Below are positions 11,832 through 29,392 of a stretch of DNA of 42,348 bases, piece by piece. Position numbers and translations under genes: made by a program. The DNA comes from Treponema sp. (GTDB lineage: Bacteria; Spirochaetota; Spirochaetia; Treponematales; Breznakiellaceae): positions 1 through 42,348 of the forward strand of contig JAISMC010000018.1 of assembly GCA_031276965.1 (NCBI GenBank), given 5' to 3'. The stretch's first letter is position 1, and each line of letters starts with the position of its first letter. A model generated the notes under the pieces. The model searched no databases and was not told the DNA's origin. It worked only from the letters and a program-made list of their open reading frames with translations.

Positions 11832-13358
11832 TCAGTTTTCCGGTTCTTCTTTGGGGTTAACGATGCTTAATTCCCTAATAAGTCTGGACAAATAGGTCCT
11901 CTGTATATCCAGGGCCTTGGCGGCTTCGGTCTGGTTCCAGTTGTTTTCTTCCAGCACCTTTTGAATAAAGCGGGTCTTAAAAACATTAATTGCAGCTTTA
12001 AGGCTGCGGTTCCCCCCGTCCGCCTGTTCAGGGATGGTTACGCTTTTGAGGAACAAATCTTCCTGCTGTATCCACTTATTCTTTCCGATAACGCAGGCCC
12101 GCTCAATGCAGTTTTCCAGCTCCCGGATATTGCCCGGCCAGGAATAGGAAAGCATGGCTTCCATGGCCTTGTCTGAAAAACCGAGAAACTGCTTTTTGGT
12201 TTCCCATATACACTTCTTAAGAAAAAAATCCGCCAGCTCGGGGATGTCCTCGGGACGCTGCCTGAGGGGGGGGATATAAATAGGAAGTACGTTAAGGCGG
12301 TAGTAGAGATCGCTCCGGAATTCACCCTTCTCCACCAGGGCTTCGATATCCTTATTGGTTGCCGCCAGGATACGGACATTCACGGTAACCGAAATATCGG
12401 ATCCCACCTTTTCAAAGGTTTTCTGCTGAATTACCCGGAGCAGCTTTGCCTGAAGCGGCAGGGGAAGATCCCCTATTTCATCAAGGAAGATAGTCCCCCC
12501 ATCGGCTGCTTCAAAGCGGCCCTGCCTGGTTTGAAAGGCATTGGTAAAGGCCCCCTTTACATGGCCGAAAAGTTCGCTCTCCAGAAGGCCCTCGGGGATG
12601 GCGGCGCAGTTTACCCGGACGAAGGGTTCCTTGCTGCGGGGACTGCGAAGGTGTATCTGTTCGGCAAATATCTCCTTCCCTACCCCGCTTTCCCCCAGAA
12701 TGAGCACCGAAGAATCGGTCTTTGCCACCCGGTCGATAATGTCTATCTTTTCCAGCATGATGGGGCTTTTGGCGATAAGGGTGTGGTAGCCCTGATTGTT
12801 TATAAGCTGATCCTGGAGCAGCTGGATTTCACCCCGGACCCTTTCGAAACTCCGTACATTCTGAATAGCCAGGGCCGCCTGGTTGGCGAAAATCTCAAGC
12901 CACTCCAGATCGTCCTGGGTAAAGTATTTACCGTTTTTTTTATTCAGAAGCTCAATAACCCCAATGCACTCCCCCTTACTGCGCATGGGAACCGCTATCA
13001 TGGTTTTGGAGGGGTAGCCTATCTGATCGGAAATCGCGCTGAGGTGGCGTTTGTCGTTTTCCACATCGTTAACCATGATGGACTTATTGTGCATGGCCAC
13101 CCAGCCGGCGATACCCTCCCCCAGTTTGACGGTATAATTTTTAATCTCCGCCCCCTTGGAACCCAGGGCGACTTCAAAGTACAGTTCCTGATTTTCATGA
13201 TTTACCAGGAGGAGACTTGACGCCTCTCCCTCGCAGAGACGGGTTGCCGAATCCAGGATCTGGGCCAGGAGGGAATGGATGTCGGAATAGTTAGAGTTAA
13301 TAAGGGTATTGATCTCAATGAGGGTATTAAACTTTTGAAGGTCAATAACCGACAGCAT
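11832..13358 (-). CDS. Sigma-54-dependent transcriptional activator (GAF-AAA+-Fis HTH)
   Basis: GAF domain at N-terminus; AAA+ GESGVGKE, GAFTNA loop, GGTIFLDEIGDLPLPLQAKLLRV; C-terminal Fis-type HTH NNWNQTEAAKALDIQRTYLSRLIREL. Confidence 0.95.
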   Translation of the reverse strand: MLSVIDLQKFNTLIEINTLINSNYSDIHSLLAQILDSATRLCEGEASSLLLVNHENQELYFEVALGSKGAEIKNYTVKLGEGIAGWVAMHNKSIMVNDVENDKRHLSAISDQIGYPSKTMIAVPMRSKGECIGVIELLNKKNGKYFTQDDLEWLEIFANQAALAIQNVRSFERVRGEIQLLQDQLINNQGYHTLIAKSPIMLEKIDIIDRVAKTDSSVLILGESGVGKEIFAEQIHLRSPRSKEPFVRVNCAAIPEGLLESELFGHVKGAFTNAFQTRQGRFEAADGGTIFLDEIGDLPLPLQAKLLRVIQQKTFEKVGSDISVTVNVRILAATNKDIEALVEKGEFRSDLYYRLNVLPIYIPPLRQRPEDIPELADFFLKKCIWETKKQFLGFSDKAMEAMLSYSWPGNIRELENCIERACVIGKNKWIQQEDLFLKSVTIPEQADGGNRSLKAAINVFKTRFIQKVLEENNWNQTEAAKALDIQRTYLSRLIRELSIVNPKEEPEN

Positions 13359-26978: not shown

Positions 26979-27170
26979 TCATGCTTCCATGCGGAATTCA
27001 ACTTCTTTGGTGAAAACCTGCTGGGCCGCCAGGGAAACCATCTTGCTGTCGCCGTCGTCAATTTCAGGGTCCCTCAGCATGGAAAGCTGAAAGGATCTGC
27101 GGACGGCGGCGCAGGTGATCTCGTACATATTGCTGTCATACTCAATGAGTTCTTCTAAGGGGAATATCAT
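26979..27170 (-). CDS. Small RNA polymerase omega (RpoZ)-like protein
   Basis: MIFPLEELIEYDSNMYEITCAAVRRSFQLSMLRD...KMVSLAAQQVFTKEVEFRMEA; the Y..T.AA..R..QL and KMVS.A..Q pattern matches omega conserved region 1, diverged. Confidence 0.6.
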   Translation of the reverse strand: MIFPLEELIEYDSNMYEITCAAVRRSFQLSMLRDPEIDDGDSKMVSLAAQQVFTKEVEFRMEA

Positions 27171-27349
27171 AGATGCTACTCTATAAAAAACAGCCCCGTA
27201 TGTAAAGAGCGTCCCTCCGCAGGGCCGGCGGTTTTGCGGACCGGCCGCCCTCCCCGCCCCCGTGCGGCCCGGTTCCTCCGCCGCCGCGGCGCCGGAGATA
27301 CCCGCTCAAACAGGACGATGCGGCCGTTTCCGCAGGCAGCGGCCTGATG

Positions 27350-27664
27350 CCTCAAGACAATGACCCGTTGCCTCAAAACAATGACTTGTTGTCCCAAAAC
27401 AATGACTTGCCGCCTCAAGACGACGGCCTGATGCCTTAAGAAAACGCCCCGTTTTCTTAAGAAAACGGGATGGATTCTTAAGAAAACGCCCCGTTTTCTT
27501 AAGAAAACGGGATGGATTCTTAAGAAAATGACTCAGATTCTTAAGAAAATGACTCAGATTCTTAAGAAAATGACTCAGATTCTTAAGAAAATGGCCCGGA
27601 TTCTTAAGAATCTGACTTGGATTCTTTAGACAACGGGATGGATTCTTAAGAAAACGGGAGCTTG
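27350..27664. repeat. Tandem array of fifteen 21-bp units, no indels
   Basis: Units divide exactly every 21 nt, e.g. TCTTAAGAAAATGACTCAGAT three times and TCTTAAGAAAACGGGATGGAT twice; units 1-4 are diverged (CCTCAAGACAATGACCCGTTG etc.). Confidence 0.95.
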
Positions 27665-27742: not shown

Positions 27743-29392
27743 ATGCTGATTAATCATCTTGTTGAGGAAGCCTTTGGTTCCGCCGAATTCGTTCCGCTGG
27801 AGGGAACGGGCCGGGAGCTGCGGGCGGAGGACGGGAGTCTTGTCATAGCCCCGGGCCTGCTCCGGCGGCTTGCCGGGGAGGGTTTCAGGCGGCTCTCCTT
27901 TTATTTGAGGCGGAGCCATCTGGCATTGCTGGCCGGCGTCTGCGCCGATCCCGGCGCTTCGGCCAATGACAAGCTGGTGGTCAGGACCCTGCTGGAGAAC
28001 GCGGTTACCGCCGCCCGGGGGGAATTTGCCCTCTGCCAGGACACGGGAACCGCCGTAGTCTACGGCTGGAAGGACGAGGGGGTCCGGACCGGCGGCGGCG
28101 ACGGGGCGGAGCTTTCGTCGGGAATCGCCGCCGCCTACGGGAATAACTTTCTCCGCGCCTCCCAGCGGGTCCCCCTGTCTTTTTTTGACGAGGCCGATTC
28201 GGGAAACAATCTTCCCGCCCAGATACGGCTGGAAGCTTCGGATAGCCGGGGCGATCCCGCCTACCGCTTTCTTTTTATCGCCAAGGGGGCGGGATCCTCC
28301 AATAAGACCGCCTATTTTTCCATGACCAAGGCGCTGCTTGAAGCGGAGGCCTTTGAACGTTTTCTTGAGGAGCGGATCCGCGCCCTGGGAACCGCCGCCT
28401 GCCCTCCCTACCGGCTGGCGGTGGTGGTGGGGGGAAGCAGCCCGGAGCACAACCTGGAGGTCCTGAAACTGGCCACTACGGAAATACTGGACGCCGCCCC
28501 CCGGACCGGCGCCGTCCTGTCCGGCGCCGCCGGCGCCGCCCCGGATGGCGGCGTTTTGTTCAGGGATCCCTATTGGGAAAGCCGGGTCCTGGATATAAGC
28601 CGCCGTACCGGCCTGGGGGCCCAGTTCGGCGGAACCGCGCTGGCCCTGGACGCCAGGGTAATCCGCCTGGGCCGTCATGCCGGATCATGCCCCGTGTCCA
28701 TCGGGGTATCCTGTTCGGCCCACCGGAATCTGCTGGCCTTTATCGACGCCCGGGGGCTGTATCTGGAAAAGCTTGAGGAGGATCCCGCGGCTTTCCTGCG
28801 GAGCCGGGGCGTCGATCTTTCCTCCGGGCCGGACCCTTCCGCTGGAACCGCCCCCGCTCCGTTGAGCCTCGACCGTCCCATGGAAGAAATCCGCCGGGAT
28901 TTAAGCCGTTTCAGCCCCGGGGACCGGCTCCTTCTTTCGGGAAAACTCCTGACGGCCCGGGACGCGGCCCACCTTAACTGGCGCCGGCTTCTTGCGGAGG
29001 GAAGGCCCCTTCCCCCCTATCTTTTCAAGTACCCCGTGTATTACGCCGGACCTTCGGCGGCTCCTCCGGGCAGGATCATGGGGAGCCTGGGGCCCACCAC
29101 GGCCCAGCGCATGGACCCCTACGGCGAAGAACTGATGTCCCGGGGCGCCTCCCTCGTTACGCTGGCCAAGGGGAACCGGAGCCCCGCCTGGACCGCCGCC
29201 TGCAAAAAATACGGAGGCTGCTACCTGGGAGTTGTGGGGGGCGCCGCCGCCTTACAGGCGGAGAGGAATGTGGCCGCCTCGGAAATAGTCGATTATCCCG
29301 AATTGGGCATGGAGGCGGTACGGCTGGTGGAAGTCCGGGATCTGCCCGCCTTCATCGTTACCGGCGGCGGGGGCGGAGATCCGTACCGGTAG
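27743..29392 (+). CDS. Fumarate hydratase, class I (alpha and beta regions fused)
   Basis: FALCQDTGTAVVYGWK, GAGSSNKTAYFSMTKALL, VVGGSSPEHNLEVLK, VYYAGPSAAPPGRIMGSLGPTTAQRMDPY. Confidence 0.93.
   Translation: MLINHLVEEAFGSAEFVPLEGTGRELRAEDGSLVIAPGLLRRLAGEGFRRLSFYLRRSHLALLAGVCADPGASANDKLVVRTLLENAVTAARGEFALCQDTGTAVVYGWKDEGVRTGGGDGAELSSGIAAAYGNNFLRASQRVPLSFFDEADSGNNLPAQIRLEASDSRGDPAYRFLFIAKGAGSSNKTAYFSMTKALLEAEAFERFLEERIRALGTAACPPYRLAVVVGGSSPEHNLEVLKLATTEILDAAPRTGAVLSGAAGAAPDGGVLFRDPYWESRVLDISRRTGLGAQFGGTALALDARVIRLGRHAGSCPVSIGVSCSAHRNLLAFIDARGLYLEKLEEDPAAFLRSRGVDLSSGPDPSAGTAPAPLSLDRPMEEIRRDLSRFSPGDRLLLSGKLLTARDAAHLNWRRLLAEGRPLPPYLFKYPVYYAGPSAAPPGRIMGSLGPTTAQRMDPYGEELMSRGASLVTLAKGNRSPAWTAACKKYGGCYLGVVGGAAALQAERNVAASEIVDYPELGMEAVRLVEVRDLPAFIVTGGGGGDPYR

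Follow-up and report, generated by a model that had tools for sequence, protein, structure and literature searches.

A 21-bp palindromic array in a Treponema genome belongs to a dispersed repeat family of termite-gut spirochetes

We identified the 21-bp tandem array between the rpoZ-like and fumarase genes of a Treponema sp. genome as a member of a dispersed repeat family of termite-gut spirochetes, not a local curiosity. The window is the whole stretch of DNA analysed here, 42,348 nucleotides, and forms contig C69 of a 2.7-Mb draft genome (85.6% complete, 6.4% contaminated). Its array is most likely a lineage-specific solo, non-coding copy of the repeat family, most simply a relic, that hairpin-mediated mutation most likely keeps palindromic. 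Related arrays stand upstream of the members of an undescribed, lineage-specific multicopy gene family, here called DWLPG. The relevant features of the window are:

26979..27170, - strand: rpoZ-like gene, 63 aa, divergent
27178..27206, - strand: promoter-like site TTTACA-N17-TAGAGT, leading into rpoZ and pointing away from the array
27206..27436, + strand: 77-codon open stretch that enters units 1-4 from the left flank and ends at a TAA
27343..27657, + strand (the sense strand of gene-linked arrays): 21-bp tandem array of 15 units
27343..27426, + strand: diverged units 1-4, in which the S/P-Q-[DE]-N frame has kept its glutamine codon (CAA): PQDND, PQNND, SQNND, PQDDG
27427..27657, + strand: uniform palindromic units 5-15 with TTCTTAAGAA, most with TAA replacing CAA in the same frame
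27448..27469, no strand assigned: first copy of the perfect 22-bp palindrome, which on the - strand resembles a terminator hairpin
27490..27511, no strand assigned: second copy of the perfect 22-bp palindrome, again resembling a terminator hairpin on the - strand
27743..29392, + strand: two-domain class I fumarase gene (Pfam PF05681/PF05683), 83 nt downstream of the array

The period of 21 is unbroken by any indel from 27334 to 27659. The fifteen indel-free units of the original prediction, given there as 27350-27664, are the identical units in a different phase, and its other structural observations hold as well: the array contains nine copies of TTCTTAAGAA, of which the rest of the window has a single further copy (at 12214), the perfect palindrome CCCGTTTTCTTAAGAAAACGGG lies at 27448 and at 27490, and units 5-15 are more uniform than the diverged units 1-4. 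Palindromy is stronger than chance would give a tandem array: complementary bases occupy 0.71 of the arm positions, versus 0.50 in a control that applied one and the same permutation of the 21 columns to all units (z 3.7, p 0.002). The fold of the eleven uniform units as single-stranded DNA has an energy of -53.3 kcal/mol, compared with -20.9 in shuffles (z -9.2). Of the two flanking genes named earlier, the fumarase is confirmed by both Pfam domains and the rpoZ is plausible, as its 63-aa product matches PF01192 with 20.4 bits, below the Pfam cut-off of 26.

The window genome contains more than ten arrays of 21-bp period, array counts per genome being lower bounds. They are located on contigs C55, C80, C119, C93, C135, C87 (two), C138, C122, C51, C1, C34 and C70, and contig C144 carries an array with a different core, GGCGTTAYAACGCC. 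The window array is similar to other arrays of the genome, with E values of 7e-44 (C55), 2.6e-30 (C80) and 1.1e-23 (C93). The core sequence varies by locus and the arms are mostly still complementary. Solo arrays were found in divergent, tandem and convergent gene gaps, those at convergent gene ends being on C80, C138, C51, C55 and C87b. By one strict pattern, arrays are present in 22 of 59 genera and in 32 of the 121 genomes of the bacterial family, probably Breznakiellaceae. Literature searches for 21-bp repeats returned nothing on the system. In genome G009, three matches of the reversed control pattern AAGAATTCTT at 21-bp spacing hint at further palindrome types with the same period, and at one locus (L072 2558-3320, G086:C28) a separate array with a 42-bp period (TATTCGGAGGTCTGTCCC...) lies upstream of the 21-bp array.

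DWLPG proteins have 221-240 aa and start with M-x-Q-[KR]-T-D-W-[LMF]-P, and several arrays lie just 5' of their genes. There are twelve copies or fragments in the window genome. Matches occur in 84 of the 121 genomes of the bacterial family; a search of 149 further genomes sampled from the phylum, few of them members of that family, found none. Where relatives are named, nearly all are Treponema MAGs from termite guts; contigs with Planctomycetaceae and Azoarcus labels also carry DWLPG genes (L221, L225, L256), and these are probably mis-binned contigs of termite-gut Treponema. We detected no Pfam or NCBIfam match for the family, and an AlphaFold2 model (pLDDT 88, pTM 0.51) comprises N-terminal helices and a C-terminal FN3-like sandwich. 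A role as DNA-binding protein or transposase was rejected on the missing matches and on the similarity of the model to FN3 domains.

Of the 77 DWLPG genes with enough upstream sequence, 73 are preceded by an array of 21-bp period at a distance of up to 900 nt and one has an array downstream, by a threshold (matches minus mismatches at lag 21) that we set ourselves and applied identically to both flanks. A second set, which replicates the result in the same lineage and partly the same genomes and is not a fully independent sample, gave 32 of 36 upstream versus 2 of 36 downstream; the best upstream period was 21, 42 or 63 in 30 of the 33 loci with any period. Genome G046 carries one DWLPG copy, at L154, with an array of 8.5 units.

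No DWLPG gene and no significant remnant of one adjoins the window array. The peptide ENGSLSGPFG resembles the DWLPG C-terminus, but the match is not significant and it was dismissed as a remnant. All three + frames of the array are closed (7, 10 and 3 stops); on the - strand one frame is open, without a start codon that would give an ORF of at least 30 aa. None of 26 fumarase homologues has an array upstream or a neighbouring rpoZ, which rules out an array site conserved together with fumarase. Similar arrays, whose absence from relatives the original prediction took, together with a lack of transcription and protein binding, as the mark of a neutral local expansion, are thus found at the family level and not at the window locus. 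Given the lack of a DWLPG gene, the closed + frames and the fumarase homologues without arrays, we place the window array as a lineage-specific solo copy. It was probably left behind in, or copied into, the rpoZ-fumarase interval, and is probably not essential for either neighbour; as no significant DWLPG remnant lies beside it, origin by gene loss is a possibility at most. The only clear DWLPG remnant was found on contig C70 (L069 192-393, genome G000), where a clear internal deletion has fused a 21-bp array to the last ~38 DWLPG codons (E 4e-18). Such deletions could be a route by which solo arrays arise. In the homologous frame, window units 1-4 keep CAA and units 5-15 mostly have TAA, a change that both completes the palindrome and closes the frame. 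The 77-codon open stretch is possibly a relic of an upstream reading frame. The heptamer or poly-C tract of the gene-linked loci described below is absent at the window.

About 16 gene-linked loci have, on the gene strand, a -35/-10 pair (for example TTGACA-N16-TACAATATTCCCATGCTT), an ATG within a few bases, and then a tract of tandem heptamers or poly-C, which a linker separates from the 21-bp array and the DWLPG gene beyond it. Tests of coding capacity gave mixed answers. Against coding, third codon positions are not enriched in differences between units, and the synonymous share of single-base changes is, if anything, lower in only-open frames (0.255 versus 0.304); purifying selection on a repeat peptide is thus not apparent. 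Some gene-linked arrays lack an open sense frame, including that on C135 in the window genome. For coding, an open sense frame exists in 65 of 69 gene-linked arrays, compared with 49.9 expected from column permutation (z 4.6), and an open antisense frame in 52 of 69 (46.0 expected); these statistics count paralogous loci as independent although they are not entirely so. Upstream of the array, open frames continue for a median of 190 nt (only-open frames) or 117 nt, closed frames for 40 nt and antisense frames for about 40-50 nt (p~1e-12), and the second set agrees (p=3e-5 versus closed, 1.6e-3 versus antisense). The open-frame and extension tests overturn, for gene-linked arrays, the reading from flat codon-position variability that the arrays are non-coding everywhere. 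As the open frame continues far upstream of the array, 21 bp most likely represents seven codons and not two helical turns. A repeat-peptide gene, one option of the original prediction, therefore fits the family, with its long sense frames upstream of DWLPG, and does not fit the window copy. The predicted heptapeptides include SKDFTST and LTAHGSR.

The frames of the arrays often stop near the DWLPG start, where chance stops past the array would fall too. From the ATG just after the -10 element, the array is in frame (on) at 4 loci and out of frame (off) at 12 at the present tract lengths; all loci are from draft assemblies in which repeat and poly-C lengths may be wrong, poly-C being unreliable. 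Near-identical paralogous leaders differ in the number and order of units, which agrees with the earlier suggestion of a fast-evolving VNTR. We infer that the gene-linked loci are frame-switch contingency loci subject to phase variation.

Coding alone does not predict palindromes, which counts against the codon explanation: palindromy exceeds the control in 46 of the 69 gene-linked arrays, again with paralogous loci counted as independent. Across 51 arrays of the TCTNNAGA type, neighbouring units differ most often (29 cases) by a flip of the centre from AA to TT, and the single-step intermediates TA and AT are rare in arrays holding both AA and TT centres (12 versus 145). The flips support hairpin-mediated inversion, short of proof, and coding may also disfavour TA, which can create a stop.

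Exact-consensus promoters upstream of arrays number 17 antisense and 4 sense; downstream there are 0 and 1. At L076, L047, L073, L080, L082 and other loci, exact TTGACA-N15-19-TATAAT promoters face away from DWLPG just upstream of the array, 220-650 nt upstream of the DWLPG starts and opposite the sense promoter across the heptamers. The antisense promoter bases read HYTL...VKY on the sense strand, so that promoter and peptide conservation are confounded. The reading of a conserved motif beside the heptamers as a small RNA was discarded: the motif is the sense promoter and start seen in reverse, and no Rfam match reached threshold.

Among the options of the original prediction was an array for cooperative protein binding. 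A dimeric protein bound to palindromes two helical turns apart, controlling the DWLPG genes and, in the window, rpoZ and/or fumarase, would account for the excess palindromy of the gene-linked and window arrays, for the position of the latter between divergent genes, for the outward-facing promoters upstream of arrays and for the phasing of extra cores, which within 210 bp is exact in 34 of 39 cases. The half-sites, however, are wholly different between loci (TCTNNAGA, GGGNNCCC, AACGCC and others), the arms varying by locus with no half-site shared across arrays. In about one third of the arrays palindromy does not surpass the control, solo arrays also occur at convergent gene ends, and the fumarase homologues have no array. 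That all palindromes face one side of the helix is correct as arithmetic and is not evidence of binding: seven codons or unit-wise duplication would account equally well for the strict 21-bp phase, and the exact phase of the cores is compatible with codons, helical phasing or unit-wise duplication. With unit sequences almost completely different between loci, cooperative binding finds no positive support, and we judge a DNA-level binding array unlikely.

If the arrays were instead transcribed and folded into successive hairpins with a role in termination, attenuation or stabilisation, the strong folding of the uniform units (computed with DNA parameters), the two terminator-like hairpins on the window - strand and the several solo arrays at convergent gene ends would be expected. 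Yet the sense RNA is the more stable strand in only 18 of the 69 gene-linked arrays (Wilcoxon p=2.7e-5), the opposite of what selection for sense hairpins would give, and selected sense RNA hairpins were rejected. No Rfam family reaches threshold in 14 array loci, and sub-threshold matches on the window array are to miRNA models, at chance level. This makes an RNA leader element very improbable. A neutral or selfish palindromic VNTR, functionless everywhere and with period and position inherited by descent, is consistent with the mutational engine evident from centre flips and unit turnover, with the many solo arrays and with the absent synonymous bias; against it stand the near-universal location upstream of the DWLPG family and the open frame that linker and array share on the sense strand only, and we doubt that it accounts for the family.

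The explanation that we prefer, and consider reasonably probable as a whole, is that the solo window array derives from a family whose usual array forms the heptapeptide-repeat part of an ORF preceding a DWLPG/FN3-like gene. As the locus comparison shows, this upstream frame lies directly ahead of the gene, begins with an ATG almost at the predicted transcript start, and stops near the DWLPG start; the length of the heptanucleotide or poly-C tract sets the downstream frame. Slippage in the tract may switch the frame between on and off, whereas the repeat number may change when whole 21-bp units slip. Units may turn palindromic through hairpin-templated mutation and small inversions. In the window genome, hairpin-templated change would have converted TCTCAAGA to TCTTAAGA and inserted stop codons.

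Cyanobacterial STRRs are intergenic heptanucleotide repeats. They are, like the heptamers of the DWLPG loci, seven-base tandem repeats in several copies per genome; the DWLPG-locus heptamers differ in lying between a promoter and a 21-bp array, upstream of one gene family. The same likeness and difference apply to the intergenic heptanucleotide TAACTGA sets of the Beggiatoaceae (PMC4679880). The promoters of hmw1A and hmw2A in Haemophilus influenzae contain 7-bp repeats and are contingency loci (PMC2424069, PMC8262952). In both systems tandem 7-bp repeats lie near a gene promoter and repeat number is expected to change expression. At the DWLPG loci, in contrast, the tract is inside a predicted reading frame, so that the expected effect is a frame switch, a palindromic 21-bp array follows, and the genes encode an FN3-like family and not HMW adhesins. 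REP, BIME and REPIN elements, which are associated with RAYT (TnpA_REP) transposases (PMC3116915, PMC3733652, PMC8266576), are likewise palindromes scattered outside genes in many copies, and some of them lie where genes converge. The 21-bp arrays, however, are tandem at a fixed period, have locus-specific sequences and are linked to DWLPG and not to Y1 transposases, and the listed array units of the window genome have no fixed tag of the REPIN type (GTAG or CGTC at the palindrome foot). Among 20 sampled Y1 (PF01797) genes, an array lies upstream of none and downstream of three, and the window genome has only one Y1 gene; with Y1 genes rarely beside arrays, a RAYT-driven REP system is unsupported. 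Some relatives have more than 30 Y1_Tnp genes, and at L074 3382-3906 (G044:C21) a Y1_Tnp (IS200-like) gene adjoins a short array, the link of Y1 genes to arrays being weak.

The odd-looking window array is a fragment of a many-copy system in one lineage of gut symbionts, and annotators should not take such 21-bp arrays for operators or ordinary genes. In palindromic repeats with flipping centres, hairpin-mediated mutation would have left its own natural record. Should the frame switch prove real, these spirochetes would possess dozens of phase-variable loci, of a design that we did not find in the papers searched. We tentatively speculate that a large set of two-part contingency loci in termite-gut spirochetes might each encode, in a frame that opens almost at the transcript start and is switched by heptamer or poly-C slippage, a fast-diversifying heptapeptide-repeat protein, its DNA rewriting itself via palindrome hairpins, and a co-transcribed FN3-like protein; together these could provide individual cells with differing surface or interaction repertoires.
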